From IMG/VR virus record IMGVR_UViG_3300025168_000010, positions 1-51,402 of that record: DNA of 51,402 bases. One strand, written 5' to 3'. Shown one piece after another: positions 27,845-47,166 of this stretch. The DNA is from a virus. A model generated the notes under the pieces. That model made no database searches. It was not told where the DNA came from and saw only the letters and a list, made by a program, of their open reading frames with translations. How positions within the stretch are numbered: the stretch's first letter is position 1; every line of letters starts with the position of its first letter. A program made the position numbers and the translations under genes.

Positions 27845-28387
27845 ATGAGTTGGTCTGGAGCAACAGCAGGTGCAATAACAGGAGCACAAATAGGGTCTGC
27901 AATACTTCCGGGTTGGGGAACCGCTATCGGCGCTGGGCTAGGTGGCTTGGGTGGATGGTTTACGACAAGAAGAACTGGAGCAGAGAAATCACTAGAGGAT
28001 TTCTATGCGCAGTTAGGTCAAGGCATGTCTCCAGAACAGGCTGCACAAGAAAAATCTATTGCAGCAAGTAAGGCAGAAGCAGCAGAGGCAGAGAATAGAG
28101 CGAAACTAATTAAACGTGGTGGAGCCAGCACGAGCGGTATCGCTTCGGCTAATGCACTGCAAGCAGCGCAATTGGCCAGACTCGCTAAGACTGAGGGTGA
28201 AGGCAAACTAGCGAAAGAGCAAGCCGAGCGAAGTTTACAAATGAAAATTGCAGGGATGCAGGGAACGGCTTCTATTGAACAGCAAAAGAGACTGGACAAA
28301 GAAAAGGCTGCGAATCTGCTTCTTACTTCAGATATAGGCACAGATACTTTAAGTACTTTGGGCGAGAACCTTTCACAGATAGGATAA
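27845..28387 (+). CDS. Ejection (internal virion) protein, gp14-like, 180 aa
   Basis: ATG at 27845 follows TAGGAGTTTGTC. The first 40 residues are a Gly/Ala membrane-active segment with GxxxG steps (GAITGAQIGSAILPGWGTAI, GAGLGGLGGW). A long Ala/Glu/Lys helix follows (AAEAENRAKLIK, AKEQAERSLQMKIAGMQ). This build matches the small ejection proteins of short-tailed phages that enter the host envelope first. The three genes downstream extend the set. Confidence 0.7.
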   Translation: MSWSGATAGAITGAQIGSAILPGWGTAIGAGLGGLGGWFTTRRTGAEKSLEDFYAQLGQGMSPEQAAQEKSIAASKAEAAEAENRAKLIKRGGASTSGIASANALQAAQLARLAKTEGEGKLAKEQAERSLQMKIAGMQGTASIEQQKRLDKEKAANLLLTSDIGTDTLSTLGENLSQIG

Positions 28388-28393
28388 CTGACA

Positions 28394-30469
28394 ATGGCTA
28401 CCCCAAAAACAGCAGGCTTTGGCGCAGGTTTATTCGGAAACAGCAAAACCTCTACAAGCCAACCAGGAACGTTTCCTCTAGGTGTTGGTGGCGGCATTGC
28501 TCAGATGATCGCTTCTCGTCGGGAAGGCCAGTATGCCTTCATGTCTCCTGCTCAACAGACTGCAATGCGCAATGAATTAGAGCTGAGTCTAGATGAGTTA
28601 GACAAGGTGGAGCACGAATGGCGGTTGGGTCTAGTTAAAGACAAAGACTCTAAGTGGGACAAGTTGTTCGAACTGTATAAGGCAAAAGCAGATATTGCAA
28701 AGGCTGCTGGCCAGCAGGCGATAATGAAGCAGGGGACTCTAGTGGGTGCGCTCGGCGTGATGGGTGTTGACCCTTTCTCTGCGGCGATAGTGGGTAACGA
28801 TGTGAACACGATTGATGGGGTTCTCAAGCTAACCACGGGAGTAGGCACCGCAATGACAGGACTTATCCCGACGGGAGGGTTTGATAAAGCCGCTGTAAGG
28901 GAGTTCCAGAAGTCAGGCGACAACCGGGCGAAGGCGCAGTGGATTTCCCAAAAGATTGGCAAGCCAATTGAGGCGTTTGCTGATCAGGCTAGAGACTACG
29001 GCAGCAGGATTCAGGTGGCTGGAGGATACGGGAGGCTGGCTACTACAGCGATGGTCCAGAGACAGGTTGGAAATCTGGTAACCAGTGATCTCTCAAAGTT
29101 CCTTCTTAATGCGATGCCAGACAGCACCGTTCAAGAACGGCTAGAAGTACAGCGTATCTTTATGGAAAAGCATGTAAGTAAGGGTAATGCAGACTGGGGC
29201 AAGACGGATACCGATGCTGTCATGAACGATAGAACAGATCTGGATAAGCAAGTAACACAAAAAATTCGTAGCTCCGATTACGTTCATGATTACATGAAAA
29301 GGGCCGGTGGCTTCGATCAAGGGACAGACGATGCCGAAGAACTTGAAAGGATTCTCAATCTCCCTCCGGATGACCCCACTAGCCCCATGAGCGACGTGGT
29401 GCCGCCTGATTACATGGTAAATAGAAGGGCCACTCTTGAGGCCCAGTTAGCCAGACTAGAGTGGAGTGACCCTTACGCAGACCAAGTTATACGTGTCGCT
29501 GAATTGGAAGGCTTTGACCAGTACAAGGCAGCACTAGGAATAAAAGGTACCAGCTACGAGTCAAACCGTAAAGCAGCTATGATCTTGGCTAAAGATCCGG
29601 GAGCAGCAACTGCCGCTTTCAAGTTTTACAAGCAAGCAAAGCTTAATGGTGTTCCTGAAGCAAAACTAGATGTAATGTACCGTCAGTACCTCGTAAAGAG
29701 TGGGGCACCAGAAGGGGGCCTGTTCGGTAAAAAGTTCGACTCGGAAAGTGTCAGACGTGCAACTCTAGCAGGGATGTCACCTAGTGAAGTCACAAGTATC
29801 GGAGCAACCATTGGTAACTATCTAGAGACGGGTGAGTTCCAGTACATAAAGCCTCCTTTTGCTACCAGATACCAAGAGTTCAAAGACTCTTTGATAGAAA
29901 AGTACGCAGACGAAACTAATGCTGAAGCCAAAACACTTCTTATGGAAGTCGATGTTGCTGCTTGGTTGGGTAAGCAAGATGCAGCCGAGCTTGATTCCGA
30001 CGAAGGTGCTGGTGTTATCTCTACAATCGAGAATGAAACCACCAAGGCTGTTCAGTGGCATAACAATATGCGATCTCTAGCCGAAGGCGGCGGGGGAGTA
30101 AGGTTTAAAGACGAGCAAGAACTTCTCTCTGAAGACCTTAAGCACTGGGAGGAAGTATCTGGCGTTGACACCTCTGAAAAAGCAGAGGCTGCTCGGAAGG
30201 CAGCAAGAGCCGTCGCTGCTGACTTGGGTGGTGAACGGCCAGAAGGAGTGATGCCAACGTCAGGGGAAGCACAAGAAGCATCAGAGACATTCGGTGTAGA
30301 GCCTGAACCACCTGTAACTGCTGAAACTGATACTCCAGTAAACAAGGGTGATAGCAAGGCAGAGGCTAAACGTAAGGCTATATCAAGAAACTTAGGCTTG
30401 AGGCCTGTGGTAGACGACTCTGAGGCAGAAGAAGCGAAGAGGCTCAAAATATCTAACAATCTTTTCTAG
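28394..30469 (+). CDS. Large helical ejection-type protein, 691 aa
   Basis: ATG at 28394 has a weak binding site, 6 bases after the previous stop. A Gly-rich start (GFGAGLFGNS) precedes a long helical body and a disordered acidic/Pro-rich C-terminal tail from about residue 590. No enzymatic motif was found. By place and composition it matches the middle ejection protein of podovirus-like phages (compare T7 gp15), which lines the transit conduit. Assigned from context. Confidence 0.6.
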   Translation: MATPKTAGFGAGLFGNSKTSTSQPGTFPLGVGGGIAQMIASRREGQYAFMSPAQQTAMRNELELSLDELDKVEHEWRLGLVKDKDSKWDKLFELYKAKADIAKAAGQQAIMKQGTLVGALGVMGVDPFSAAIVGNDVNTIDGVLKLTTGVGTAMTGLIPTGGFDKAAVREFQKSGDNRAKAQWISQKIGKPIEAFADQARDYGSRIQVAGGYGRLATTAMVQRQVGNLVTSDLSKFLLNAMPDSTVQERLEVQRIFMEKHVSKGNADWGKTDTDAVMNDRTDLDKQVTQKIRSSDYVHDYMKRAGGFDQGTDDAEELERILNLPPDDPTSPMSDVVPPDYMVNRRATLEAQLARLEWSDPYADQVIRVAELEGFDQYKAALGIKGTSYESNRKAAMILAKDPGAATAAFKFYKQAKLNGVPEAKLDVMYRQYLVKSGAPEGGLFGKKFDSESVRRATLAGMSPSEVTSIGATIGNYLETGEFQYIKPPFATRYQEFKDSLIEKYADETNAEAKTLLMEVDVAAWLGKQDAAELDSDEGAGVISTIENETTKAVQWHNNMRSLAEGGGGVRFKDEQELLSEDLKHWEEVSGVDTSEKAEAARKAARAVAADLGGERPEGVMPTSGEAQEASETFGVEPEPPVTAETDTPVNKGDSKAEAKRKAISRNLGLRPVVDDSEAEEAKRLKISNNLF

Positions 30470-30485: not shown

Positions 30486-31241
30486 ATGGCAGATAAATCA
30501 TTTCCCCACACAATGGCTGACGGGACAGTAGCCAAAGTTACGTTCAAAGGCGATACAGCATTTGTTGATGGCACAAAGATGAATGCGGCTGACTCGGCGA
30601 CGTTGCTTAGTATGTACGCAGAGCCAACTGTTGCATCCGGCCTTTCCCAACGAGCACTATCAGATATAGTCGGACCAGCTATTGCTGAGGCAGCAGAGAG
30701 GGACAAAGGAAAGATCATTGCTCTAAAGAGACTTTACCAGTTTGGCAGTAAGCCGACATACGCTGGGGGCGAAAAGCCGGGGATGTTTTCCGGCGGTGGG
30801 TTGCCTGAGAAATGGGACGCATCTGAAGATCCAAGATTTGCTCGTTACAAGGCGAGGCTGCAAACGGCTGATAACGTCCCCGATTCCATACGATTATTTA
30901 GTGATATGGTTGCCGATAAAAACCCTGCTGTCTCTGCGTTTGCTATGGATCGGTTAGACCTCCTTACCAACATTATCTATCGTGGCGGTAACGAAACCGA
31001 TGGGGTTCCGGGGGTCAGCACTAAAGCAGGGGCCGGTGGCTCCATTATAGGAAACAAAGAATGGTGGACCTCACCCGGAGGTATGCACATAAGCCTTACT
31101 CCAGAAAAAGGTTCTTTGCAGCACAGGGCGGCCTCTGCGCAGCATGGCGCTAAAGGTGCTGATGAGCTTGAGAGGCAGAAAAAGAAAGCAAAAGAACAGT
31201 ACGAAAGCCCAGAACCTGAAAAAGAAACCTACGAACTGTAG
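30486..31241 (+). CDS. Probable internal virion protein, 251 aa
   Basis: ATG at 30486 follows AAGTAAGGACTAAAAA. The N-terminus has a compact beta-hairpin pattern (TMADGTVAKVTFKGDTAFVD). A helical middle and a Lys/Glu-rich tail (ADELERQKKKAKEQYESPEP) follow. No catalytic signature is visible. It lies between the two big internal proteins, so co-packaging or assembly with the 3,399-aa protein is likely. Confidence 0.55.
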   Translation: MADKSFPHTMADGTVAKVTFKGDTAFVDGTKMNAADSATLLSMYAEPTVASGLSQRALSDIVGPAIAEAAERDKGKIIALKRLYQFGSKPTYAGGEKPGMFSGGGLPEKWDASEDPRFARYKARLQTADNVPDSIRLFSDMVADKNPAVSAFAMDRLDLLTNIIYRGGNETDGVPGVSTKAGAGGSIIGNKEWWTSPGGMHISLTPEKGSLQHRAASAQHGAKGADELERQKKKAKEQYESPEPEKETYEL

Positions 31242-31256
31242 CCCCCAGAGGAACTA

Positions 31257-34200
31257 ATGGCCGAGGAAGAAGGCAATAAACAAGCTGCTATCTCTTCAGA
31301 TGAAGGGATAAATCAAAAGCAGTGGTTGAACGATGCTGACTTGGGTGCTCCACAGCTGCCCAGTCTGCTTTCGGACGAACAGAAGGCTCGCCTTACCGAC
31401 CCTAAACAAACTTACCATAAGGATAAGGCTGCTGGGCGCAACCTCCGAGCCACTGAACCACGGTACCATCCTGCAAGTTGGAGGGAACTCGGTGGGAGCA
31501 TGTTGTCCACTCCTGAGAGACGGGAGGAAGCATCAGACGCCTATAAACTGGCTGAGCTATATCCTGAGCACAGAGACTTCTACATGGAGATTGCTGGTGC
31601 TAACGCTATCGGCCAACGAGACCTTCTAACATTTGAGGACATAGAAGAAGCAGAGTCTCCGTCTATCTGGGAAAACATAGGGACAGCCTTAGAGCCATTC
31701 CTAACCCCACAACGGATGCTTTGGTACTCTGGACTTAAGTTAGGAGAACTTCTTCCAGATCCCGGCAGTATGTTCGGTGACGCTGTGCAAGATGTTGTTG
31801 GTGTAATCGGGGCACCGTTCTTATTCGCTACAACAGGTATCTTAGAGGCTGGGCCTATGGCCTATGAAAGCCTATTCGGAGAGGGGGAGACGCAACGGGA
31901 TGATCACTTCTCAAGTGGGAAACCGCCAGCAGAGGAGCTGGCTTTAACGTTTAGAGATATGGTTGAGAATCTTTATGGAGATGTTTCTACAGGAGAACTA
32001 GCGGCTAAGGCCGAGGCAAACATGAGACCTTGGCTCTGGGGCGACTGGAGTACTGCACCTGCTCCGACGGGAACGTCGATTCTCGACTCAATGATGTCCT
32101 ACGAGGAAGCAGAGTACCTGTCGCAAAAAGGAGAAACCCGACAGTTAAGAAAGTTTGGGGACTGGATGAGTAGCGACACTGGTCGCATGGTGATGGGTCT
32201 TTCAATGGAGCTAATCGCAGATCCTCTCTGGTTCACTGGCCCTATTGGTAAAGGCGGTAACGTTGTTGCGCATGGCGATAAACTGGTTCGCGTAAGCAAA
32301 GTTTTAACGAAAACAGCAGGGAAGCTGCGCACACTAAACCCTAAGTACTCTAAGAATGACTTTACTCATTCGTTGATCCATCTTGTTGAAGGAACTGACG
32401 AGCAAATAAAAACAGCAGAGCTGTTGCTAAGTAACCATAGTGCAATGGCGAGAACTCAAATAAAAGCTCTTAACAGGGAAGCAGAGCTTGCAAAGAATGC
32501 TTTAAAGACAGACAACCCAGAAGACCTCAGAAAGGCAGTCAGGGCTATTGCAGACGAAAAGATAGACGCACAGAAAACAATAAGCGCCCACCATGAGATA
32601 CTAGCCACAAAGGGTGCCAAAGAAAGAGGGAAGCTTTTTGCTCAGCAAGAAACTGAAAAGATTAGGCTTATAGCCAGTGACCCTGCTAAGGCTAAAGTAT
32701 GGCTTAACCGTCAGGTAAGAGACCTTCCAAGGCGAGCTAAGGTGTACCAAGGTCTTTCGGACGATATTGGAAAGATAGTGGGAGATATCTCTGATGCGAG
32801 AAAGTTAGGCGGCAAAGCAGGCAAGAAAGCACTTTCTAAGTTTGCAGGAAAAGGTGGCAGGTGGGCGGTACATATCCCGCTTACAACCAAGCATGGCTTC
32901 CTTTTAGAGAAGGGAGCATTTGAGTCTGTAACCGAACTTATGCGTAAGGTTGGCCCAATTGATAACATGATGGATAACTTCGCTGTATCCGCTTTGAATA
33001 ATACAGTAAAAGTAGCAAGAGAAGCATCTCCAAATATATCAACGCTCGATGCGCTTGGTGGTAGCCAAGCAAAACTTGCAGCATACACCATGATGAATGC
33101 CACACAAAGTCTAGCCCTTATCCCCTTGGCTAGTTGGGATGTGTTTAGACGCGCTTTGGGTACTAGGTACTTACAGCCCATGACTCAATCCCTCCACCTA
33201 AGAGGGGCTTCTGAGAGTGGGTTCTTACCGGTACTCGGTGCAGGTACAAAAACCATCCAGCGCATAAAGAAGGTTCACCCGAAGGTATGGGAGCAGTACC
33301 AAGAAGGTCTTACCAAGATGATGGAGGGCTACACTGGGCTTGAGACACAACTAAGAGGTAGAATCCTTAGACTGTTTAAACTAGCAGGTCAAACAGCAGA
33401 TACACGTCGGAAGAAGTCAGCAGCGGAAGTTGCTCGCCTCACTGCGTTGCGTGGCAGGTCGACTGATCCTGTACGGATAGCAGAACTAAACTTTGAAATT
33501 GACAGAGCAAAGATGTGGGGGAACACTAAAGAGTACACAATTAAGAACATCATGAATGAAGCCGGTTCCGCTTTGGAGGAAGGCGCAGGTAAACTCGAAA
33601 AGCTATCTGACGACGCTCTTGAGGTCGGCAAGGGTGCTAGAGCCATCATTGATGCAATCCTTAACGACCCAACAATCAAAGCAGGAAAGCTAGAAGTAGA
33701 GCAAGCACTTGTGGCTATGGCTCGCCTTGCAAAAGGCAGCAATATAGAAAAAACAAGGATTCTTGGAGACTTAAAACTTATAGAAGAAAAACTTTCTACT
33801 ATGAATCTAGCAAAAGAGGTTGCTACACGTAAGATGCGCAGGGCTTACACTGCCCGATTAGCAGAACTTCGCTCTGCCACAAAAGTAATTGAAACAATAA
33901 GGCCAGAGGCTCTTACCTCCGCGATTCAAAGGATGATTGAAACCCCAGAGAGTCCAGCAGATCTGCTCAATGACTTTGTAAGGATCTTTGGAACTGAGGA
34001 GGCGGCACGTTCTGTACTTCGTAGTACAGCAATAGCGATGGGTAACAACAATGAAGCCACCGCTATGCGGATGTTCGCTGAAAAAATTGCAGGTGACTTA
34101 CCGACTGAAGTTATAAAGGATTCAGAGAAATTAAGAGAAGCGATTGGTCGTGGAATCAAAGACTACCTTTCTAGCCTGAAATCAGAGTCTGCTAGACTAC

Positions 34201-37200
34201 ACAACTCATGGGTGCAAGGCAGCTCTAAAACTAAAATTGGGCAAAGGGAGTTCTTCCCTGGAATGAAGTCTGATGACTTCGATGACCTTGCAAACTCTCT
34301 CATTGAAAGGGAGATTTTATCTTGGAAGGTCTTAGTCCCATCGAGTGAACGAGCAGCGTTTGAGAAGTGGGCCAGCAGAGGCCAAGTCCAAGAAGAAAAC
34401 ATACTAGCCATATTGGATAAAAGGGCACCTATTGTTAGCGCAGGAAGTGAACACTGGCAAGATGCTTTTGGTTTCTACAGCAGGGCTAAAGCATTAGAGC
34501 AAGTGAAGGTAACGGCTAGGAAGTGGGCCTCCTCCACAGATAAAGTCTCTGACATCCAACGACAAGTGCTACCGATTGCGAGTAGGGGGTCCAAGGAGGA
34601 GATGTACCGTGTTGCAGATGCCGCTGTAGCGGAGGGTGCTACCGTCTCAGATAGGTACATTGAACCTTCTCGCTGGCGCAGAAAGCCTAAGCCTAAGCCA
34701 GAGCCAAAGCATGTGCCTGTGCAGGCTATCCCAGATAAAGATTTATATGTCCCAACTCCAGAAGAGTTGGCCGCTGAGTTGGAGTTTGAAACTAATCTTT
34801 TAGCCCTTAGAGACAAGTTTACCAGAGTCTTTGATGACAAGAAAGTAGATAACAGCAAGTTTTTAGAGTCTTTAGGTTTAACAAAGAACGAACTACAAGA
34901 TCTAATGACCGACCTGTATGGTAAAAGCCATTTAAAGTCTTTGGCTGCAAAAGAGACACTGCGGAAAATCTTTAGAGAAAAAGCTGTCATACAGCCTCCT
35001 GGTCTTAGTACCAAAAAAATTGACGTAGACTTTGATCTTATTGCGCAAGACCCAAACCTAAGCGTTGCGGCTGTACAAAAGAAAGTAGGAGAGAGTGCAG
35101 AAATACAAATAGGACGCGCTCTGTTTAGAGATTCAGATTCTACAATTGTAGAAACAACAATACTAACTCCGAGCACCCCGCCTAAAAAGCGTATTACTGA
35201 CAAAGAGTTTATAGAAAAACAGTACAAAATTACGGGTAATCGCAAACTATTCAAATTAGAAAAAGGTGATGAATACCTACCAGACCCAGTACTTGACTTG
35301 CTGGATGAAATCGGAGACGTGCCCGTCTTTGTTCACGACGGTAAGTACCGACTTACTGGGCGTAGTTCGCTTGCACTTGAACATTGGCCCAAACCAAAGC
35401 CAACAGAATCCATATACTATTTCCCGAAACAAGAAGGGCCACCAGGCTATAATTTCCTAAAGGGTGAAGCTACTCCTGTGGCTGGTAGGCCAGTTGACCT
35501 TGGGGTCAAAGATGGTAGAGAATACTTTGTATTCAAACAAGTCTACAATTCCAAATCAAAACAAGGTGCCCTAAAGCAAGGTGACGAGGTAACCGGTCTT
35601 CATGGCGGTATAGACGATATAGAGAAAGGCCCATTAATGGAGTCTGGCTTTTCTGGCGCAGCGAAAGGAGAGGCAGAGGGTGTCCATGTTCGTATCATCC
35701 ATCGTGGGGAGGATCTAGAAGAACAGCTTATGGTTCCTATCCTAAACAAAAAAGAAAAGTTGCAACCGGGATACGGGACCGGAATCCACTACGTGCAAGT
35801 AAGAAGTAAAGAAGAACAGGTTGCAGCAGTAGAAATATCTGGGATGATCAGAGCCGGGAGGGAGCGTCTTGCGAGAAAGCGTTTTGAGAAGGGGCCAAAC
35901 TTTGCGGAGTATCAGAAAGTTACCGGCGAACTAAACGATCAGCGAGTTATCTTACAAAGCAACATACAGAAGAAGATAGATCAGCTAGAGAAAGCTCTCT
36001 CAAAGCTAGAGCGGAGCAGGGCTGGGGCACTAAGAGCAAGCTTGGCTGACCGGCCTGCTATCTATAAACGAATAGATGGTAAAGAAAAAGAGATTAATTT
36101 AAAGCTTAAGCCTCTGCTCGCTAACAAAAGAAAGTTTGTTGAAAAAAAGATAACCCCATTGGAAGGAAGGCTCAGTACGCTTAAGCCGCCTCCAGTTGCC
36201 GCAGGCAAGTCGACAGAAAATGGTGTCCTTCAGGTTGTTGGCCACGAAGTTGAAATTAGCTCTATGCTAGAAAGGCAGTTCTTTGTCTATATGGACAAGA
36301 GCACCAACAACTGGCATGTAGTAGACACTACTACCGGAGCTAGGGTATCACAAGGCCACAACTCTAATAGCGCAGTATCCGCAGCCAACCACCTCATCGA
36401 GGAAGAGGGCAGGATAAGCTACTTCAACAAACTTGATGGAAGCCCTAGTTTGTGGGGCTTTGGAGAAAAGCAGGTCAAAAAGGTCTTCACTGGGAAACCG
36501 GAGTGGCGTGTAAAAGATGTTGCATCAGGTCTTACACGCGGCAAAGGCCCGACTAGAGAAGCAGCGATAGATGCCGCAAAGAATAAAACGAACTCCAAGT
36601 TCGATTCGTATGTAGCCCAAGAACAAGCAAAGCCAAACTACAGGCCAGTGCTTAGAGAAGTTAGCCGTGAAGAGCAGGCCAAACTTCCTTGGCAACTTTA
36701 TCTTGAACAATCAGGCAAGCCCCACGGGAATCTCTGGGGTGGGAAAGTTGCTTTGGCAAGGACGAAAGAGCGAACTGGCAAAGCATTAATGCCTATTACT
36801 AAGGAAAGGATTAAGGAAGCACAAGAACTTGGTGCCACGTTTATACTTGGAAACACCAAGCATCTTGACCGCCAACTTGCTTTGTTCTTAGATGAAATCG
36901 GCGCAAACTACACAGTATACCATGCTGGAGATGTACCAATCGTTACTCGCCCAGTGGCTAGGCTTGAGTCTAAAACTTTGGAAGCGATAGAGTCAGCATC
37001 CCCACGAAGGCCATTCTCTAGGTATCTCCTTGATGAGTTGCGTGTCCCAGAGAAGCCTAAGCGCCCACCTCTAAACGAGTTCCCTGAACCTGTCTCAGCG
37101 TTTAACCCTATGGTGAAGCGCAAGGTTTACCGAGAAGATGGTGGCCAAGTAGTTGATGTTGCCAAGGTGGTAGACGATCTTGACCCTGCGGTTAAATTCA

Positions 37201-40200
37201 AGTTAGAAAAAGCAACTGAAAGAGCAGCAAGTGGAATAGATAAACTGTTGCCTTCCTTCCAAAAAGAGTTCTCAGTCTTTAAGGAAGCCAATATCAAGGA
37301 TATGAATCCTAGATTATACAATACGACCCCTACTCCTGATGGTTTACTTTTCTCCGTATTAGAAACCTTGAAGAAACTTTCTGGTCCAAGTCGCAGGAAT
37401 CCATTCCCCGATATGGACAGTCTTTCCGACCTCGAACTCTTACTCAGAGACCTTGACTCTTTTTCTTCTGGACTAGGGAAACAGTTCAAAGCCAGTGATT
37501 CTTTGTCGAAGAAAATACGAGCCGCCAGTAAGAAACTTAACCAAGTCAAGAACGCTACAGGTGGCAAGAAACATGGGCCATTGGGCCTGTTCCACGACGA
37601 GTTCGTACAGATTTTAAAAGGTCTTACTATTGGTGGCAAGCAAGGCTCCGCAACAATTAAAATTGCACTACGCAAACTACAAAGAAAGTATGGTAAGGAT
37701 CTGAAGTTAGCCCTACCTAGGCATGGAGAAGCAATACGCAGACCATTGGGACCAAGCCTGTTCGATTCAGCATCAGTAGCTCGTAGAATACGTCAACTTG
37801 ATGATGATACCGTCTTGGAGACCCTAGCATCACTAGTTGTAAAAGACGGTATTAGCGATGCTAAGATGAGAGGCTTGCTGAAGAACATTTATAAGAAGTC
37901 TAATGCGCGTAAGACGTTATCGCAGGCTACAGAAGAGACCTTACTAGCAGATATGACAAAGGTTAAGTCCGACCTACTTGAGGTTTCAAGGGTCAAGTTT
38001 GGTGTATCCAGTAAGACTGGAAAGTTTTCAAGAGGCGATATCGCAACGAAGATCTTTGCTGATGTAAGGAAAGAAAACAAACTTATTACCGATAAGCACA
38101 ACAAATTAACCGATGAGTACCTTGGTAAAATGAAGGAACTCCGCACTGCTTTGAATAAGAATATTGAACCTAAGACTATCGGTGACCGAACCAGAAAAGG
38201 TTGGGAGAACAGGCTGTGGAACCAGTTTAGTGCTCTGTCAACAAAGCATGGGCTATCAAACCAAGACCAGTTGTTTGCAGCATTTTCTGTTCTAAGCGAA
38301 ATGCCTCGCAATATCTCACCAGACATGATGAAAAACCTTACAAGCAAGTACCCTAACGTCATTGGCCGACGCTTTGGTGACATAGAGAAAGACCTTGCTC
38401 CTGTAATGGAAGAGTTAGAGAGTCTAATTAAGTTCTATGAACTAGAGTACTCCGATAGAATTTGGGATATTGTCCGTAGCCCAGAGACTATGATGGAGCG
38501 TTGGGGGGTGCTGGACTTTGTTCCGCACACGTTCCATGCTGGGACAGATGAAGTCTCTTTACAGTTAAGTATGGCTGGGAAGTCACAACTCGGAAGCGGT
38601 AAGGGTATACATGAGATGTTCTTCCGTCAGATGGACGCAGCAAAGGGTCGTAAGATCGCTGGCTCCATCAATGAGATCAATGCCTTTAACCATGCAAAAG
38701 AAGGTGCTGTTGACTTGATCAACCTTGAGCCTGCTCTGCTGTGGGGCAGGTATGCACAAGTAAACCATGCTTTAACCAACGATACCTTTATACAAACACT
38801 TATCTCAACGGGCGTTATACGCGGTCTTCGCAGTGGCGATGCCACCATAGCCAAAGACTACGGTATTAGCCTTACTCGTGGGGACGGTCTTGCTAAGACT
38901 GCCGATGAGATTGCGTTGGAACTAGACATGGTGCCTCTCTTTGACCGGTCTGTCCAGACTGAAGAGATGAACAGGTTTATGATGCTCACGCTTGACGATC
39001 TCCTGAACACCTACGCAACGTCTCCCGGAAAGGTTGGACACCAAGAAGTATCAAAAGCTCTTGAGCAAGTTGCTGACTCCCTGCAAGAAGCGTCAAAAGA
39101 AAAGGGTTTCGCTAACTGGATGAACACATCCAAGAATATAAATGCTTTGCGCAAACTTGAGCAGACATCTCTTAGGCTAAGGGCTGCACAGGCGGCAGAG
39201 GGTGCAGACTTATTCAATCCTCGTAAACGTTACGACGAATTACTTAAGCCTGAACTGGCTAATCAAGTAGCAAAGTGGGATGCGACAGAAGGTATAAAAC
39301 TAAACAATGCTCTACCTGATGATGAGTTTAATGCAGCTAGAAAGATAGCGTTATCCAAGTTAGACACGCAGGTCTCACGTAAAATATGGGATGATGTCTC
39401 TGCGGAAATGAACGCACTCCGCTCGAAGTACACTCCGAATGCACCTAAGACACAGGGTATGCATCTGTCAGCATACTATGACCCAAAGGCGGGGCTGTGG
39501 GAAATGTACATGCCAAGGGGTGTCCACCAGAGCATGAAAGAAGTCATTAACATGGACCCTAGATCACATGGGCTTGTCGGTAGAGGATTAGAAAAGTTTA
39601 ATAACTGGTGGAAGACCCGTGTTACCGTCATTGCGATTGCGTTCTCTACACGTAACTGGGGTGCAAACAATGTTTCTATGGCCTTTGATCTCGGCCCTCT
39701 GGGAGTACTTAATCCTAAAACACACATGCAAGGTCTTAAGTTATCCAACGCAGTCCGGTTCTACGACGAGTTTGGCAGTTTAGAAAAAGCATCAAGGGCA
39801 GCAAAGAAAGCCCTCCCTAGCGATGCTACACTCTCAGAAAAAGCAAAGCATGCCGCCTTACAAAGTGGCTTTAGATTCGGTGGGCTGCAAGGTCTACTAG
39901 ACAATGGTGTTCAGTTAACAGACGACCTATGGATGCCTATTGATGAACTAATGGAGCGCATGACTCGTACTGGTGTAGTCAGTCCAGCCTATACCCAAGT
40001 GGTTGACATTAACGCTATGGAACAAGCAATGTCTCACATGCATTTGCATGGTGGTGCTCTTGCTGATGGGACGACAGCCGCTAAACTTAAGAAGTACGCC
40101 TCGAACATTGAGGATGCAGTGCTCGTTACCGTTCCTACCATGATGACTGGCGGTGTGCCTGTCGCTATGTCCAAGAAGGTTGGTGCAGAGTTTGCCCGTG

Positions 40201-41456
40201 GTGTTGAAAACCAGTCTCGTATATTCAACTTCCTTTCTAACATTAAGAAAACAAACAACTGGGACGATTCGGTAGCACATGTAAACAAGTTCTTGTTTAA
40301 CTATGGTGACCTGACCCAGACTCAGAAGCGTTGGATGCGTTTGATTCTGCCGTGGTTTACTTGGAACCAAAAGAACTTTATACTACAGGCAGACTTGATG
40401 CAAAAGTCTCCTGCGCTGTTCTCCTCATTCCATAAAATGATGAGTGACGGGCTACCACAAGTAATGGCTGCAAGCCAAGCCGAGGCTGCTGGTGAGAGGT
40501 TTGTAAACTATGACCCACTCTCCAAAGAAAGGTTGAAAACTCGCGAGACCCACTCGATGCACACCATCCAAATGCCACTGCCTTCTCTTGAAAACTTTGG
40601 TCTTGGAAATGTATCCGTTCCTGTATTTAAGCGAGGAAAGAAAGGTGTTATGCCTTGGCAGTCGTTTGACATGCAGTGGGGCAAACTAGGTAAAGACTAC
40701 TTCCCAAGATTGAAGAACGCACACGTTCAAGGTTTTGGTCTCCCACAAGAAGCGTTTATAAACAACCTCTCACTGCTAATGACTGGAGCAGATGTTCGTA
40801 ACTGGCCTTGGCTTCCGCTTCCAGGGGACTTGGGTAAACAACAAAGGGCACGTTCTTTTGCATCTCGTAGCCGTTGGATTCGTATGGCTGGAGAAACTCA
40901 TGCTCTTATACGTCTCGCAGCAGAGATCGGCTCTGGTCAGCATACTTACTTTAACAAACCAATAAATGAACTTACTGATGGCAGGCTACTCTCTGAGACA
41001 ATCAACGGTATCCGGCAGGTCCCATTTGTTGGAGATACGATGGGCGACATCCTGTCTCAACGTGTAGGTATGAAAGGGTATACTGTCTACGACAAGTGGA
41101 GTGGAAACTGGAAGGAGTTTATCCGTGTTGATGGCGCAGCCAATCACTCGCTCGGACAACTTCCTTGGTCACGTACACTACGCGATGCGGCAGCAATGAC
41201 GGATCAATTCCTAATGAGTCGGCTTATTCCTTGGGAGGCGTTGGCAGCAGAAGGAATATCTCCTCAAGATTTTGGTGAGGTTCCTGTGCTATGGAGCGCC
41301 CTAGATGCCTTAAGTGGTGTCCGTATTATGCAGACAGACCCTGATTTGATGAGGTCATACGCTGACATCAGAACAGAAAAGCAGTTACAGAAGTATCTGG
41401 AAAGTAGAGGTTTGCTCAAGTCTTTCCAAAATTCCTACATACCATACAAATACTAG
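31257..41456 (+). CDS. Giant internal/ejection virion protein, 3,399 aa
   Basis: One uninterrupted frame of 10.2 kb, starting at ATG 31257 after GAGGAACTA. The protein is mostly helical and Lys/Ala/Leu-rich. Coiled segments include about residues 1565-1640 (QKKIDQLEKALSKLER). A Rossmann/SLOG-like stretch near 1840-1890 (ELGATFILGNTKHLDRQ, then IGANYTVYHAGD) resembles a module seen in other giant phage polyproteins. In the last quarter, KWWK-type, FSTRNWGANNVSMAF and, near 3010-3040, FNYGDLTQTQKRWMRLILPW, continuing FTWNQKN, recall conserved segments of very large T7 gp16-like ejection proteins. I found no transglycosylase, protease or T7/N4-type RNA polymerase catalytic motif by eye. Confidence 0.75.
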   Translation: MAEEEGNKQAAISSDEGINQKQWLNDADLGAPQLPSLLSDEQKARLTDPKQTYHKDKAAGRNLRATEPRYHPASWRELGGSMLSTPERREEASDAYKLAELYPEHRDFYMEIAGANAIGQRDLLTFEDIEEAESPSIWENIGTALEPFLTPQRMLWYSGLKLGELLPDPGSMFGDAVQDVVGVIGAPFLFATTGILEAGPMAYESLFGEGETQRDDHFSSGKPPAEELALTFRDMVENLYGDVSTGELAAKAEANMRPWLWGDWSTAPAPTGTSILDSMMSYEEAEYLSQKGETRQLRKFGDWMSSDTGRMVMGLSMELIADPLWFTGPIGKGGNVVAHGDKLVRVSKVLTKTAGKLRTLNPKYSKNDFTHSLIHLVEGTDEQIKTAELLLSNHSAMARTQIKALNREAELAKNALKTDNPEDLRKAVRAIADEKIDAQKTISAHHEILATKGAKERGKLFAQQETEKIRLIASDPAKAKVWLNRQVRDLPRRAKVYQGLSDDIGKIVGDISDARKLGGKAGKKALSKFAGKGGRWAVHIPLTTKHGFLLEKGAFESVTELMRKVGPIDNMMDNFAVSALNNTVKVAREASPNISTLDALGGSQAKLAAYTMMNATQSLALIPLASWDVFRRALGTRYLQPMTQSLHLRGASESGFLPVLGAGTKTIQRIKKVHPKVWEQYQEGLTKMMEGYTGLETQLRGRILRLFKLAGQTADTRRKKSAAEVARLTALRGRSTDPVRIAELNFEIDRAKMWGNTKEYTIKNIMNEAGSALEEGAGKLEKLSDDALEVGKGARAIIDAILNDPTIKAGKLEVEQALVAMARLAKGSNIEKTRILGDLKLIEEKLSTMNLAKEVATRKMRRAYTARLAELRSATKVIETIRPEALTSAIQRMIETPESPADLLNDFVRIFGTEEAARSVLRSTAIAMGNNNEATAMRMFAEKIAGDLPTEVIKDSEKLREAIGRGIKDYLSSLKSESARLHNSWVQGSSKTKIGQREFFPGMKSDDFDDLANSLIEREILSWKVLVPSSERAAFEKWASRGQVQEENILAILDKRAPIVSAGSEHWQDAFGFYSRAKALEQVKVTARKWASSTDKVSDIQRQVLPIASRGSKEEMYRVADAAVAEGATVSDRYIEPSRWRRKPKPKPEPKHVPVQAIPDKDLYVPTPEELAAELEFETNLLALRDKFTRVFDDKKVDNSKFLESLGLTKNELQDLMTDLYGKSHLKSLAAKETLRKIFREKAVIQPPGLSTKKIDVDFDLIAQDPNLSVAAVQKKVGESAEIQIGRALFRDSDSTIVETTILTPSTPPKKRITDKEFIEKQYKITGNRKLFKLEKGDEYLPDPVLDLLDEIGDVPVFVHDGKYRLTGRSSLALEHWPKPKPTESIYYFPKQEGPPGYNFLKGEATPVAGRPVDLGVKDGREYFVFKQVYNSKSKQGALKQGDEVTGLHGGIDDIEKGPLMESGFSGAAKGEAEGVHVRIIHRGEDLEEQLMVPILNKKEKLQPGYGTGIHYVQVRSKEEQVAAVEISGMIRAGRERLARKRFEKGPNFAEYQKVTGELNDQRVILQSNIQKKIDQLEKALSKLERSRAGALRASLADRPAIYKRIDGKEKEINLKLKPLLANKRKFVEKKITPLEGRLSTLKPPPVAAGKSTENGVLQVVGHEVEISSMLERQFFVYMDKSTNNWHVVDTTTGARVSQGHNSNSAVSAANHLIEEEGRISYFNKLDGSPSLWGFGEKQVKKVFTGKPEWRVKDVASGLTRGKGPTREAAIDAAKNKTNSKFDSYVAQEQAKPNYRPVLREVSREEQAKLPWQLYLEQSGKPHGNLWGGKVALARTKERTGKALMPITKERIKEAQELGATFILGNTKHLDRQLALFLDEIGANYTVYHAGDVPIVTRPVARLESKTLEAIESASPRRPFSRYLLDELRVPEKPKRPPLNEFPEPVSAFNPMVKRKVYREDGGQVVDVAKVVDDLDPAVKFKLEKATERAASGIDKLLPSFQKEFSVFKEANIKDMNPRLYNTTPTPDGLLFSVLETLKKLSGPSRRNPFPDMDSLSDLELLLRDLDSFSSGLGKQFKASDSLSKKIRAASKKLNQVKNATGGKKHGPLGLFHDEFVQILKGLTIGGKQGSATIKIALRKLQRKYGKDLKLALPRHGEAIRRPLGPSLFDSASVARRIRQLDDDTVLETLASLVVKDGISDAKMRGLLKNIYKKSNARKTLSQATEETLLADMTKVKSDLLEVSRVKFGVSSKTGKFSRGDIATKIFADVRKENKLITDKHNKLTDEYLGKMKELRTALNKNIEPKTIGDRTRKGWENRLWNQFSALSTKHGLSNQDQLFAAFSVLSEMPRNISPDMMKNLTSKYPNVIGRRFGDIEKDLAPVMEELESLIKFYELEYSDRIWDIVRSPETMMERWGVLDFVPHTFHAGTDEVSLQLSMAGKSQLGSGKGIHEMFFRQMDAAKGRKIAGSINEINAFNHAKEGAVDLINLEPALLWGRYAQVNHALTNDTFIQTLISTGVIRGLRSGDATIAKDYGISLTRGDGLAKTADEIALELDMVPLFDRSVQTEEMNRFMMLTLDDLLNTYATSPGKVGHQEVSKALEQVADSLQEASKEKGFANWMNTSKNINALRKLEQTSLRLRAAQAAEGADLFNPRKRYDELLKPELANQVAKWDATEGIKLNNALPDDEFNAARKIALSKLDTQVSRKIWDDVSAEMNALRSKYTPNAPKTQGMHLSAYYDPKAGLWEMYMPRGVHQSMKEVINMDPRSHGLVGRGLEKFNNWWKTRVTVIAIAFSTRNWGANNVSMAFDLGPLGVLNPKTHMQGLKLSNAVRFYDEFGSLEKASRAAKKALPSDATLSEKAKHAALQSGFRFGGLQGLLDNGVQLTDDLWMPIDELMERMTRTGVVSPAYTQVVDINAMEQAMSHMHLHGGALADGTTAAKLKKYASNIEDAVLVTVPTMMTGGVPVAMSKKVGAEFARGVENQSRIFNFLSNIKKTNNWDDSVAHVNKFLFNYGDLTQTQKRWMRLILPWFTWNQKNFILQADLMQKSPALFSSFHKMMSDGLPQVMAASQAEAAGERFVNYDPLSKERLKTRETHSMHTIQMPLPSLENFGLGNVSVPVFKRGKKGVMPWQSFDMQWGKLGKDYFPRLKNAHVQGFGLPQEAFINNLSLLMTGADVRNWPWLPLPGDLGKQQRARSFASRSRWIRMAGETHALIRLAAEIGSGQHTYFNKPINELTDGRLLSETINGIRQVPFVGDTMGDILSQRVGMKGYTVYDKWSGNWKEFIRVDGAANHSLGQLPWSRTLRDAAAMTDQFLMSRLIPWEALAAEGISPQDFGEVPVLWSALDALSGVRIMQTDPDLMRSYADIRTEKQLQKYLESRGLLKSFQNSYIPYKY

Positions 41457-41468
41457 GATCAGAAGACA

Positions 41469-41765
41469 ATGGAAGGCTACGGAACTACAATAGCAATAAG
41501 CGCCCAAGCGGTGTCTTTGATCCTGTTCGGAGTCCTAGGCTTCTTTCTGAAGAGACTTGTAAATCAGGTGGATACAATGGAGAACAAAGCAACAAAGGTA
41601 AGACTAGTAGTAGACAAAGAGATGGCCTCTATCAGAGAAGATGTTGTGCGACTTGAAGCAAACAGCAGCAACTTCGGTGCTTCACTAACAGAAGTCAAAA
41701 CAAAACTGGACGCTCTCAGCGAGAACATCCAGTGGATTCGTGAGAAGTTGGCAAGCAAACCTTAA
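41469..41765 (+). CDS. Single-pass membrane protein with coiled coil, 98 aa
   Basis: ATG at 41469 follows CTAGGATCAGAAGACA. Residues about 8-30 are a transmembrane helix (AISAQAVSLILFGVLGFFLK). The remainder is a heptad-patterned helix (EMASIREDVVRLEANSSNFG). It may be a spanin-like or XhlA-like lysis accessory, or a membrane anchor for the ejection machinery. Its stop shares TTAA with the stop of the convergent primase gene. Confidence 0.65.
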   Translation: MEGYGTTIAISAQAVSLILFGVLGFFLKRLVNQVDTMENKATKVRLVVDKEMASIREDVVRLEANSSNFGASLTEVKTKLDALSENIQWIREKLASKP

Positions 41766-43411
41766 CGGGCTGCTATCCTACGTTGTAACTCTAACCGTCT
41801 CTTCTGCATCTCTAGCCTATCACTGCCTTCCTGACTGGGCAGTTCCTTAGAAAGATGCCTCATCTCTATCCGAGATACTATCCTCCCAAGAGTCTTCTCC
41901 GGCTCGTCGTGTCCTGTTCCCATTGCAATCTTATGGAGTTTAGGCTGTAATGATTCAGCCGCTTTCCTTGCAACAGTATGGGCTGGCTCACCAGACAGTA
42001 GGCTTTCTATAGCCTCGCGTTCTTCTTCCCCATAGATCCAGTCTAAGTTTAATAACTTCTTAGCCTTTGAAGCCATGCCTTCGTTCTTCATCAGGATACC
42101 TGCTAAAGCCAACGCTAGTGGGTCGTGTGGCTTCGATGTAGTCATCTGTGGCTCAGTAGGCGCTGGCTGTCCTACAAGGCGCTTAAGGGCCATGTACGGG
42201 ACACTAAGGATGTCTGAGACCTGACGCAGAACAACGTCCCTAGCAATCAAAGGATACGAACGGATTACAGGTATCGCCTCATCTACTGCTGCTTGCCTAC
42301 CATGTGGAGACCTGTCATGCTTTCTGGACAGAGTGCGTAACCATGTTCCGAGTAGTGGCTCCGCTTCTTCTATCCTAGCTAGTATCTCTTTCATGGAGTT
42401 TGAACCGACGTAATCAGCAGGGTCCATACCATCAGGCAGGCTTACTGTAAGAGAATCAATGTTACTCTTTGCAAGGATAGGCAAAGCCTTAGATGCTGCA
42501 CGTCTACCAGCATCGTCAGAGTCAAAGAAGCACAATGCTTTGTCTGTTAGTTTAGAGAACAGTTTCACATGGTCCTTGGTTAACGCTGTACCACAGGAGG
42601 CAACTGCTTCTGTAATCTCTGCTTGATGCAAGGCAATCACGTCGAAGTAGCCCTCAACAAGAATGACCCTATTCCATTCTCGAATAGCAGGGATGGCTTG
42701 GCTTAATCCAAAAAGGATTGAGGACTTGTTGTATAGTGTCGTCTCTTTACCATTGATGTACTTGGCCTTGGCTGTACCTGATATGTCTCTGCCAGCAAAA
42801 GATACCAACTGCCCTATCTTATTACGGATAGGGAAGATGATTCGATTAGCAAAGACACAGGATGGAGAGCCAAAACTAACACGGAGTATCCCTGCGCTAA
42901 CCGCTGCATCTACAAGGTTATGATCTCTTAGTGACTGGACTATTCCTTCCGATGAAGATGGGCAATAGCCTACCTCCCACCTGCGAATACTCTCCTTACT
43001 TACTTGTCTTTGCTTTAAGTATGCTACTGCATCTGGATGAGATGCCGCATGGCTAAAGTAATGTTGCGCTACATTAAGCGCCTTCTTCATGTCTTCCTTA
43101 GCCTTGTGTGCTGCGTCGTCGAGGTCTGTTTCAATCTCAATGTTAAACCTATCAGCAACATACTGGACAGCATCAATGAACCCTAGTCCCTCTAGCTTCA
43201 TGGGTATGGTGAAGATGTCACCACTGGCACCACAGCCATGACAGTAGAACACGCCACGGTTAGCCTCAACATGTAGGCTTGGAGTCTTCTCTCCGTGGAA
43301 AGGGCAGACAACAAAGATCTCCCCACTTTGCTTTTTTACCTTGGCATAGTCGCCAAACAACTCCACGATATTCGAGGATTTACGTACAGTTTCGATTACA
43401 TAGTCATTCAT
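41762..43411 (-). CDS. dnaG: DnaG-type primase, 549 aa
   Basis: It would make RNA primers for lagging-strand synthesis. The CHC2 zinc finger is intact (VVCPFHGEKTPSL ... FYCHGCGASGD; C36, H39, C57, C60). The catalytic core follows (YLKQRQVSKESIRRWEVGYC, then FPIRNKIGQLVSFAGRDISG) with the TOPRIM motifs LVEGYFDVIAL and CFFDSDDAGRRAA. The C-terminal 150 residues may bind the helicase. ATG 43411 is chosen over the in-frame GTG 43417, which sits on the AGGAG site itself. It is last in the replication operon. Confidence 0.92.
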   Translation of the reverse strand: MNDYVIETVRKSSNIVELFGDYAKVKKQSGEIFVVCPFHGEKTPSLHVEANRGVFYCHGCGASGDIFTIPMKLEGLGFIDAVQYVADRFNIEIETDLDDAAHKAKEDMKKALNVAQHYFSHAASHPDAVAYLKQRQVSKESIRRWEVGYCPSSSEGIVQSLRDHNLVDAAVSAGILRVSFGSPSCVFANRIIFPIRNKIGQLVSFAGRDISGTAKAKYINGKETTLYNKSSILFGLSQAIPAIREWNRVILVEGYFDVIALHQAEITEAVASCGTALTKDHVKLFSKLTDKALCFFDSDDAGRRAASKALPILAKSNIDSLTVSLPDGMDPADYVGSNSMKEILARIEEAEPLLGTWLRTLSRKHDRSPHGRQAAVDEAIPVIRSYPLIARDVVLRQVSDILSVPYMALKRLVGQPAPTEPQMTTSKPHDPLALALAGILMKNEGMASKAKKLLNLDWIYGEEEREAIESLLSGEPAHTVARKAAESLQPKLHKIAMGTGHDEPEKTLGRIVSRIEMRHLSKELPSQEGSDRLEMQKRRLELQRRIAAR

Positions 43412-43450
43412 ATTCACTCCTAATTGAGAAAGTTATTTAAGCACAGTACT

Positions 43451-43936
43451 CTAGAATAGTCCGGCGAGGTATGCCGATGCGACCCAAAGTGCATCAGCCT
43501 CATTATCATCTTGTAATTGCCACCCTTCTTCCTGCCATCTCGCCAATGCAGAAGAAATCATAAGTTCTTTTGGGGCATTTCCTTTACCAGTTGCATGTCT
43601 TTTTATTGTCCCAACTGGGATGCTAACATAAGGATGTTTGTCCAGTTCAAGTACGGATTGAAGTGTTGCCATCAGTCCACCATAGATGTGTGCAGCAGTG
43701 ACACCACGGTGTCTCCGTACCTCTTCAAAGGCTACATGGATACTGTACTGGTCACGGTTGTTAAACAAGTCTCTAAGTTTGTTGGCAAACCTAACGTATC
43801 TCATGCCGCCACCTTCATGTCTCTGGGTTGCAAAGTCCCAAGTTCCAGAGTCTACACGAGTTCCGTCAGGTCTTAGTACTGCCCACCCACACTTCGTACC
43901 TAGGTCCAGACCGACAACGTATTCTACTTCTTTCAT
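43451..43936 (-). CDS. RuvC-like Holliday junction resolvase, 161 aa
   Basis: The start MKEVEYVVGLDLGTKCG at 43936 follows GCGGAGGTAGA and overlaps the upstream stop (ATGA). Acidic catalytic residues of the RuvC/RNase H fold are present: D11 in GLDLG, the glutamate pair in VAFEEVRRHRG, and DDNEADALWVA near the C-terminus. It would resolve branched recombination intermediates before packaging. The length is typical of phage RuvC-like resolvases. Confidence 0.88.
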   Translation of the reverse strand: MKEVEYVVGLDLGTKCGWAVLRPDGTRVDSGTWDFATQRHEGGGMRYVRFANKLRDLFNNRDQYSIHVAFEEVRRHRGVTAAHIYGGLMATLQSVLELDKHPYVSIPVGTIKRHATGKGNAPKELMISSALARWQEEGWQLQDDNEADALWVASAYLAGLF

Positions 43937-44268
43937 TCTACCTCCGCTTTCCCCCCTCTGATTCTGGCTGGTGACCACCACCAGGACTCATTGAAGTCTC
44001 CATCTTTTGATGGGATTACTTCATCAAAGGAAGATATCCATTCGTTAATGTGAAACCTTGTAGGTGGGAACATTCCCTTCACCCTACCGTCTGGGCATCG
44101 AATGCCAGACAACCAATCATAAATGCAACTTATCTCTGTCCTGCAACCAGTGTTGACATAGATGCTGTGCTGCATAGCGGATACACTAGCAAGGTGCCTC
44201 TTAATTTCTAAGAGACGTTTCCTTGCTAGTGTATTGCTTCTTACGTGACCTCTACTCGAAGTAGTCAT
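43933..44268 (-). CDS. Hypothetical protein containing a long inverted repeat, 111 aa
   Basis: ATG at 44268 lies within the end of the upstream gene and has only a weak binding site. An alternative start, MQHSIYVNTGC, lies at 44175. Residues about 12-30 are encoded by a 54-nt hairpin described separately. If the later start is used, this hairpin becomes a leader instead. The C-terminal half is Trp-rich (FHINEWISSF, ESWWWSPARI). Its stop overlaps the resolvase start. No family recognised. Confidence 0.55.
   Translation of the reverse strand: MTTSSRGHVRSNTLARKRLLEIKRHLASVSAMQHSIYVNTGCRTEISCIYDWLSGIRCPDGRVKGMFPPTRFHINEWISSFDEVIPSKDGDFNESWWWSPARIRGGKAEVE
44181..44234. repeat. Perfect 14-bp inverted repeat with inner hairpin
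   Basis: ATACACTAGCAAGG at 44181-44194 pairs perfectly with CCTTGCTAGTGTAT at 44221-44234. A second stem, CTCTTA (44198-44203) with TAAGAG (44209-44214), lies inside it. The whole 54-nt element can form a stable stem or cruciform. It sits in the first third of the 44268 frame or just upstream of its alternative start. Confidence 0.9.
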
Positions 44269-44488
44269 TGTCTACTGCAAGCCAACGTATAGTCTCATCT
44301 TCATCTACAAAGATGACACCCTTTAGTTTGCCAGTTGAGTCATGAATCATACGAGGAGTATGGTCATACTTTATAAGGCTGATGCTGTGCTTGATGATAG
44401 TCCTGTCCCAAGGTATCGTAACGTATGGGGCAATCGTATCATCTTCACCTTCAAAGCCTACTATCTCATCACTTCCAGTCATTGCCAT
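44252..44488 (-). CDS. Hypothetical protein, 78 aa
   Basis: The frame is open back to 44704, but that part is antisense-free overlap with the SSB tail. ATG 44488, preceded by GGAAGCGGTA, is more likely (44482 is also possible). It then overlaps the SSB gene by about 20 bp. The small acidic beta-rich protein has segments IVGFEGEDDTIAPYVTIPWD and KLKGVIFVDEDETIRWLAV. Function unknown; location suggests a replication accessory. Confidence 0.55.
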   Translation of the reverse strand: MAMTGSDEIVGFEGEDDTIAPYVTIPWDRTIIKHSISLIKYDHTPRMIHDSTGKLKGVIFVDEDETIRWLAVDNDYFE

Positions 44489-44945
44489 TACCGCTTCCGT
44501 AGCCGGAATCAGATACGCCACTGCTAGATGGCGCAGGGTTTCCAGTATCCACTGGTCCATGTCCTGAGCCGACCGGAGGACGGGTTCCACCAGAGGAGTC
44601 GCCTGACCCCACTCCTTGACTGTGGAAGTTTTGCCCAATACCTTCTGCACTAACTTTCTCGACATTGAACGCAGTAAGCGATGAGTAGTATGCCGCTTGC
44701 CCATTCTTTTCTACCTTACGTGTGGTGTACTTACCTTGACACATAACAAGTTGTCCACTGCGACAGTTACGAACGTTGTCCTTAGCCCTATCACCCCAGA
44801 TCTGAACGGTGTGATACGCATCGTAACGAGTACCGTTGCTTGTTTCCCATGTCTTAACCCTAAGATTAAGGACGCTCTTCTGACCGACCTGACGCTCTTC
44901 TGGTTCTGCTGCTAGTTCGCCAATTATTAAACAGTTGTTAATCAT
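44469..44945 (-). CDS. ssb: Single-stranded DNA-binding protein, 158 aa
   Basis: The OB fold is recognisable from NNCLIIGELAAEPEERQVGQ, the variant LNLRVKTWE and TVQIWGDRAKDNVRNC. A Gly/Ser/Pro-rich linker (about 105-150) leads to a short end, SGNGNDWK. The usual bacterial acidic tip DDDIPF, which recruits host partners, is missing, so the phage SSB may not dock to host SSB partners in the standard way. ATG at 44945 follows AGGAGAATGAG, one base after the nuclease stop. Confidence 0.88.
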   Translation of the reverse strand: MINNCLIIGELAAEPEERQVGQKSVLNLRVKTWETSNGTRYDAYHTVQIWGDRAKDNVRNCRSGQLVMCQGKYTTRKVEKNGQAAYYSSLTAFNVEKVSAEGIGQNFHSQGVGSGDSSGGTRPPVGSGHGPVDTGNPAPSSSGVSDSGYGSGNGNDWK

Positions 44946-44946
44946 C

Positions 44947-45951: not shown

Positions 45952-46261
45952 CTGTACCTCCTAGTGGTTCTTCATCAGTTAAGAAAACCTTGTCTGCAAT
46001 AAGAACAGTGTTCCTACCCTCAGACCCAAGCCTTCCTGTCACATGTACTACTTCTCCCTGACCTTCTTTTGCAAGCATCACAGCATTGTTACCGAACGCA
46101 AGCATTCTAATATAAGTATCGAACTTAGCCTTCTCTAGACTAGGGTTCCTAAGAACAACTCGAACCTTCTTCCCACTGGATACAGAGGGGCCGCAGTCGT
46201 CAACCTCTGTGACTAAACCACAGAAGTTAACAGAGTTTGGATATTGATTTTTAAAGCCCAT
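45938..46261 (-). CDS. Second OB-fold SSB-like protein, 107 aa
   Basis: ATG at 46261 follows AGGGAGAACTA. The strands VNFCGLVTEVDDCGPS, KVRVVLRNPS, TYIRMLAFGNNAVML and GEVVHVTGRLGSEGRN have the order of an OB-fold single-strand-binding domain. It lacks the long acidic tail of true SSB. Together with the SSB at 44945 this gives two OB proteins in one operon. It may assist the annealing protein rather than replication. Confidence 0.7.
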   Translation of the reverse strand: MGFKNQYPNSVNFCGLVTEVDDCGPSVSSGKKVRVVLRNPSLEKAKFDTYIRMLAFGNNAVMLAKEGQGEVVHVTGRLGSEGRNTVLIADKVFLTDEEPLGGTDGSR

Positions 46262-46270
46262 TAGTTCTCC

Positions 46271-47086: not shown

Positions 47087-47097
47087 ACTTACTCCTC

Positions 47098-47166
47098 GGT
47101 GGTTAACGCCACCATCGTGCTGTGTTGATAGCCCACGGCTATCGTTGTGTCAAGGAGAATCCGCAA
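47098..47166 (+). promoter_or_regulatory. Hairpin-rich leader of the inserted plus-strand gene
   Basis: GGTGG-ttaacg-CCACC (47098-47113) and the perfect GATAGCC-cac-GGCTATC (47128-47144) lie between the back-to-back start of the annealing gene and the start at 47167. AAGGAG at 47152 is the binding site. The hairpins may act on either strand: as leader for the plus gene or in the mRNA of the minus operon. Confidence 0.5.

Follow-up and report, generated by a model that had tools for sequence, protein, structure and literature searches.

The virion RNA polymerase of phage N4, gp50, consists of an N-terminal injection region, a middle polymerase, and a C-terminal encapsidation region (PMC5512222), and the N4 relative DEV encodes a giant of 3,398 aa at the same place in its block of ejection genes (PMC10925440). 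N4-like virion RNA polymerases contain no cysteine (Cys), and passage through the tail or periplasm has been proposed as the reason (PMC2784036, PMC3715699). The ejection series of N4 comprises gp52, gp51, and gp50 (150, 644, and 3,500 aa), and that of T7 comprises gp14, gp15, and gp16 (196, 747, and 1,318 aa). Polyvalent proteins of phages and conjugative elements, described by Iyer et al. in 2017 (PMC5512222), carry unrelated modules in one chain among virion genes. Here, we analyze a window of 51,402 bases, a complete IMG/VR record comprising the whole contig, in which a single gene encodes a protein of 3,399 aa, comparable in size to N4 gp50, as an earlier note on this DNA had pointed out. 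We think it likely that this giant is an ejection protein of the gp16/N4 gp50 type with a swappable payload of the polyvalent kind. What is new is an exchangeable middle, and no polymerase, within a known kind of ejection protein.

The giant gene and its neighbors

The giant ORF begins with an ATG that has a GAGG a few bases 5' of it and runs to its stop codon with zero internal stops (Table 1), in agreement with the single 10.2-kb frame reported by the earlier note. It takes up 10,200 of the 51,402 bases (19.8%), and because the record has no end repeats, the earlier figure of one fifth applies to the record as such and would hold for the genome only with a contig close to full length. A homologue of 3,491 aa in contig L001 aligns over the whole length at 57–60% identity, with differences at codon positions 1, 2, and 3 of 0.33/0.23/0.58 in the N-terminal arm, 0.43/0.32/0.63 in the middle, and 0.25/0.14/0.55 in the C-terminal arm. 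In each of the parts, third positions are much more variable than second ones, which indicates coding constraint throughout the giant. Further homologues of 3,354, 3,730, 4,276, 2,731, 2,708, and at least 2,661 aa share the same two end regions; among other phage contigs, six keep the frame open at 2,708–4,276 aa, and a seventh has a copy cut by its contig end. The end-to-end homologue, the codon-position pattern, and the six additional open frames rule out an assembly or frame artefact that would divide the ORF into several genes; the giant gene is one real gene with its own family.

The giant is the last of four consecutive block genes encoding 180, 691, 251, and 3,399 aa, located after the head and tail genes. 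The genes 5' of the block encode a terminase (PHROG 2), a P22-like portal, a protein at the scaffold position, and the major head protein, followed by tail-type genes. As in T7, N4, and P22, a small membrane-type protein, a tunnel-type protein of ~650–750 aa, and a very large protein are encoded consecutively, and relatives have similar series of 216/725/187/3,730, 193/655/4,276, 225/676/2,731, and 204/749/2,708 aa. The start of the 180-aa protein is a glycine-rich segment. The slot of the 251-aa protein holds a protein of 187–323 aa in close relatives and is absent in L021, L027, and L040. The giant closes the virion operon here, save for the 98-aa gene that follows it, as the earlier note had stated; this does not extend to L027, L040, and L041, where tail-type genes come after the giant.

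Outside the block, the gene at the scaffold position starts about 120–190 bases before the end of the preceding frame in three of three phages compared (the window, L006, and L023). An opposite-strand replication block (window 41762–48968, − strand) encodes a DnaG-type primase, an SSB, a Rad52-like annealing protein, and a DnaB helicase. Near the end of contig G007 (L023:17508–18420), Cys/His/Thr-rich low-complexity frames look foreign or chimeric.

Table 1 Positions of the features discussed (window coordinates unless a locus is named)
Feature	Position	Strand	Residues	Description
180-aa protein	27845–28387	+	180 aa	Gly-rich, 0 Cys; place of gp14/N4 gp52 in the block
691-aa protein	28394–30469	+	691 aa	0 Cys; place of gp15/N4 gp51, candidate for a periplasmic tunnel
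251-aa protein	30486–31241	+	251 aa	0 Cys
Giant ORF	31257–41456	+	3,399 aa	0 Cys; predicted ejection protein (gp16/N4 gp50 type) with a putative payload slot
N-terminal arm	31257–34703	+	aa 1–1149	Kept in 8/8 family members
Middle	34704–37256	+	aa 1150–2000	Putative payload slot; opens at the linker KPKPKPEPK
Two beta-beta-alpha repeats	36279–36587	+	aa 1675–1718 and 1746–1777	DUF2188-like, sub-threshold
SLOG/Rossmann-like stretch	36687–36932	+	aa 1811–1892	Weak
C-terminal arm	37257–41453	+	aa 2001–3399	Best conserved part; mostly helical by prediction (low confidence)
Family signature	40185–40400	+	aa 2977–3048	ENQSRIFNF...KFLFNYGDLTQTQKRWMRLILPWFTWNQKN
98-aa protein	41469–41765	+	98 aa	0 Cys; membrane-type segment, possibly holin-like or accessory; MEGYGTTIAISAQAVSLILFGVLGFFLKRL
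Scaffold-position overlap, window	18449–18997/18876–19784			
Scaffold-position overlap, L006	11375–12031/11847–12779			
Scaffold-position overlap, L023	5873–6823/6666–7286			

Two conserved arms around a variable middle

Pairwise comparison splits the giant into an N-terminal arm (N-arm), a middle, and a C-terminal arm (C-arm). The window giant (P0001) shows 41% and 51% identity to its relative P0005 (L025) in the arms and not a single match in the middle. The N-arm contains a hydrophobic Gly-rich stretch (aa 172–201, nt 31770–31859) and the motif ELIADPLWF (aa 318–326), which shares a short DPLxY/W motif with the first membrane region of T7 gp16 (GAGVDPLSY), a lead only, as the profile comparison with T7 gp16 fails (hhalign, probability 0.1–0.2%). 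The C-arm signature follows the pattern KFLFNYGDLT..QK..MR...P.FTW..KN..LQ. With a six-sequence profile, hhalign finds this signature in a 1,023-aa protein of L029 (97% probability), which is the sole link to annotated phages, and more weakly in a 1,106-aa protein of podophage ctEqG8 (56%) and the 1,743-aa gp37 of phage Shocker (15%). The earlier note had seen gp16-like segments near residues 3010–3040: indeed, no motif of the family is better conserved than aa 3010–3044, a stretch common to ejection-type proteins of actinobacterial podophages, and it is the homology to T7 gp16 that fails.

Sequence searches of the whole giant against Pfam, PHROGs, and the PDB give no domain above cut-off, tblastn with the giant or its pieces finds nothing in annotated phage genomes, and a scan of genome contigs reveals no prophage relative. 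Profile searches of the N-arm, the C-arm, and the 691-aa partner against the PDB return only chance-level matches. By blastp, hmmsearch --max, and hhalign, the arms have no detectable homology to the ejection proteins of T7, P22, and N4, nor does the giant to T7 gp16, P22 gp16, N4 gp50, or gp33–gp35 of Roseobacter phage CRP-7, the isolate whose terminase gives the best E-value (25% identity). AlphaFold models of the C-arm (six sequences, mean pLDDT 42.5) and of the middle (two sequences, mean pLDDT 42.8) are unusable; at a pLDDT of about 42, they offer no fold evidence, and the structure prediction that the earlier note had proposed as a check is too poor to define a role.

One short match bears on whether the giant could instead be an external tail protein, such as a fiber, tape measure, or adhesion protein. 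The family phrog_19395, labeled 'tail fiber', matches aa 2977–3063 (1.8e-5), and a position ahead of tail-type genes, as seen in L027, L040, and L041, would fit such a role. However, the match covers only 87 residues, the C-arm is predicted (at low confidence) to be mostly helical instead of beta-rich, the portal is P22-like, and Cys is missing from the whole block, a trait of ejection proteins that most tail and spike proteins lack. We regard an external tail protein as improbable, and the label was discarded, the family being loosely named and the match only 87 residues long.

The middle is common only to the nearest relative, and its identity to L001 is down to 0.45. Among all 28 pairs of family members, the middles are unrelated except in P0001/P0002 and P0006/Q040 (L040), apart from a zincin match of 155 aa that links P0005 with P0003. 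The beta-beta-alpha repeats match DUF2188 below cut-off (E 0.0077) and phrog_7408 at 1e-4. For the Rossmann/SLOG module that the earlier note placed near residues 1840–1890, we find a SLOG-like motif and an alpha-beta-alpha-beta arrangement at pLDDT 50–60 within aa 1811–1892; the stretch has no Pfam or PDB match and its motif, GNTKHLD, looks degenerate, which leaves the module a weak lead.

Relatives carry other modules at this position, named here from motifs, with Pfam scores below threshold. P0005 has two HExxH zincins, P0003 has one zincin and a second, doubtful HExxH motif, P0004 has a GNAT-like stretch, a polyvalent-type stretch, and a zincin, and P0006 and Q040 have an HNHP motif. A profile built from the four zincin stretches matches N4 gp50 at residues 2221–2335 and 2627–2728, in order (E 1.7e-6, small set), and the first of these matches overlaps the N4 metallopeptidase (MPTase) region described by Iyer et al. 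(PMC5512222). The payload pool of the family thus overlaps that of N4, although the arms have no detectable match. In the P0004 middle (L021:4223–7045), RGKGLGKWLYEEAI is GNAT-like (E 0.003, below cut-off), HVGELQSDIHKAGGKGGYG..PDAPFKTNW appears polyvalent-type by eye, and HEMGH occurs with EETFARAFERF.

The exchange of the middle third in related phages suggests an interchangeable payload slot. If the giant is an ejection protein, the middle could still be purely structural, a fast-evolving spacer or a tunnel or tape segment with no effector role in the host. No enzyme family is recognized in the P0001 middle, which is predicted to contain linkers and a helical hairpin, and the low identity to L001 fits a spacer. 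Yet the same position in relatives has catalytic-type motifs (HExxH zincins, one GNAT-like stretch, HNHP), the zincin of relatives is related to that of the N4 virion RNA polymerase, and second codon positions of the middle are under tighter constraint than third ones, so within the ejection reading we hold a purely structural middle to be rather unlikely.

Cysteine depletion of the block and of podovirus ejection proteins

The four-gene block contains no Cys in 4,521 aa; 27–37 are expected from the Cys frequency of the other genes, and a Cys-free block has a chance of 2e-12 to 5e-17. Across the eight proteins of the giant family, there is one Cys in 26,350 aa. As controls, T7 gp15 and gp16, N4 gp50–gp52, and P22 gp7, gp20, and gp16 have zero Cys each, and T7 gp14 has one. 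In SP6, P-SSP7, Sf6, epsilon15, and LUZ19, the ejection proteins, chosen by annotation or position, have 7 Cys in 11,085 aa versus 113 in 14,182 aa for other virion proteins, a 12-fold difference; the weakest control is epsilon15, with 5 Cys across four ejection proteins. Pooled over the eight podoviruses (NC_001604, NC_008720, NC_002371, NC_004831, NC_006882, NC_005344, NC_004775, and NC_010326; ejection genes at loci L032–L034 and L048–L052), ejection proteins have 8 Cys in 18,949 aa, compared with about 0.8% in the remaining virion proteins of five of these phages, and the gp15/gp16-class proteins mostly have none.

Nearly all Cys-free ORFs of at least 600 aa in the loci fetched belong to ejection blocks. 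The exceptions are an 846-aa protein of L006 and CRP-7 gp51, a Cys-free protein of 1,166 aa annotated as 'putative tail structural protein' that has no known ejection role; a few capsid, scaffold, and needle proteins are likewise Cys-free. Cys depletion is an empirical marker, calibrated on podoviruses and outside the formal definition of ejection proteins. The depletion across eight podoviruses suggests a more general rule for ejection proteins, and the marker may offer a simple calibrated way to spot ejected proteins among unannotated virion genes from sequence. The word 'cysteine' is absent from an ejection-protein review and from the N4 and DEV structural preprints, and in the literature consulted we found a Cys-free description only for the N4-like polymerase.

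Genes 35–38 of Microbacterium phage Shocker (L030:3188–11135) form a Cys-free run of 244, 417, 1,743, and 233 aa. The Shocker host is Gram-positive, so Cys loss may not depend on an outer membrane.

Relation to the N4 polymerase and proposed delivery

The giant shares with the N4 type a length of ~3,400 aa, the absence of Cys, and a place in the ejection block, and this likeness to gp50 in size, block order, and composition, together with a record in which a search found no separate T7-type RNA polymerase, would be expected of an N4-type virion RNA polymerase that had diverged past recognition. PF00940 has no match in the records of the family; in controls, it found CRP-7 and N4 RNAPII, and the N4 virion enzyme only at E 0.007. 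Because this profile is weak for virion RNA polymerases, the catalytic motifs were used instead. N4 gp50 has the T/DxxGR motif (TRVGR, at 1417) and motif B, RxxxK...YG (RGIAKNPLTITIYG, at 1663), and neither has a counterpart in P0001 or P0002, which bears out the earlier note's failure to see polymerase motifs. Neither the arms nor the whole chain match N4 gp50, and the 850-aa middle is variable within the family where a polymerase would be conserved. A divergent polymerase was rejected on the missing motifs and the non-conserved middle, and we assign it only a very slight chance.

By block, size, and composition, the giant would work like T7 gp16 or N4 gp50, and by homology it belongs to neither. 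The earlier note's idea of a multi-domain chain delivered to the host gains a more definite form from gene order, protein sizes, the Cys-free block, and conserved arms around a variable middle: the giant gene would belong to a short-tailed phage and encode its largest ejection (pilot) protein, probably packed in the virion and delivered into the bacterium before the DNA enters. It may be packaged within the capsid, as T7 gp16 and N4 gp50 are, and exit via the tail before the DNA together with its 180-, 691-, and 251-aa block partners. The giant and these partners could then help build a conduit across the cell envelope, with the hydrophobic Gly-rich stretch of the N-arm touching the membrane, and the block-wide loss of Cys may prevent disulfide trapping of partly unfolded chains in transit. 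The two arms would serve as the packaging and ejection chassis, and the middle as the payload slot. In the window giant this slot contains the beta-beta-alpha repeats and the SLOG-like stretch, and in relatives it contains zincin, GNAT-like, or HNHP modules; early in infection, such payloads would act on their substrate inside the host cell.

More tentatively, the family may represent a natural interchangeable delivery chassis, in which Cys-free arms carry any middle into the host and anti-host or anti-defense payloads are swapped, with the N4 virion RNA polymerase as a parallel whose payload is a polymerase; we find this conceivable, at somewhat less than even odds. The fixed arms and exchanged middle give names to the parts, the arms being the putative carrier and the middles candidates for functions in first-minute host takeover or anti-defense. 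The arrangement bears on how podoviruses pass megadalton protein complexes through a ~35-Å channel and on the effectors that accompany their DNA (PMC12633501, PMC10925440).

Compared with N4 gp50 and its relatives in the Schitoviridae (DEV gp71, 3,398 aa), the giant is alike in size, in its place as the giant of an ejection block, and in having no Cys, and it also resembles gp50 in N-terminal hydrophobic stretches, a middle that is functional in gp50, a long C-terminal region, and a zincin common to its relatives; unlike gp50, the window giant has no polymerase motifs, detectable arm homology, or zincin. T7 gp16 (with gp14 and gp15) and P22 gp16 (with gp7 and gp20) are similar in block order, relative sizes, and Cys absence, but the giant is 2.6 to 5.6 times longer, has no profile match to them, and has no transglycosylase signature; the lytic transglycosylase signature is absent from the block as a whole, and the E37 motif of T7 gp16 was recovered as a positive control. 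Like polyvalent proteins, the giant family would combine several unrelated modules in one chain encoded among virion genes, and relatives of the giant bear zincin, GNAT-like, and HNHP motifs and an LPD-like stretch; in contrast to polyvalent proteins, the modules are flanked by two long conserved arms, and P0001 has no named domain above cut-off. The Shocker gp37, ctEqG8, and L029 proteins share the C-arm signature, Cys-free neighbors, and DPLTW/DPTTY, but they are one half to one third as long as the giant and have no comparable middle.

In CRP-7, the virion block likewise ends with 3,826 aa of Cys-free protein, but this is divided among three separate genes with no sequence similarity to the giant, and CRP-7 has its own T7-type RNA polymerase. 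The three products, gp33–gp35 (L002:7860–19368), are unannotated, measure 1,235, 1,368, and 1,223 aa, and contain zero Cys; the N-terminus of gp35 appears lysozyme-like by eye.
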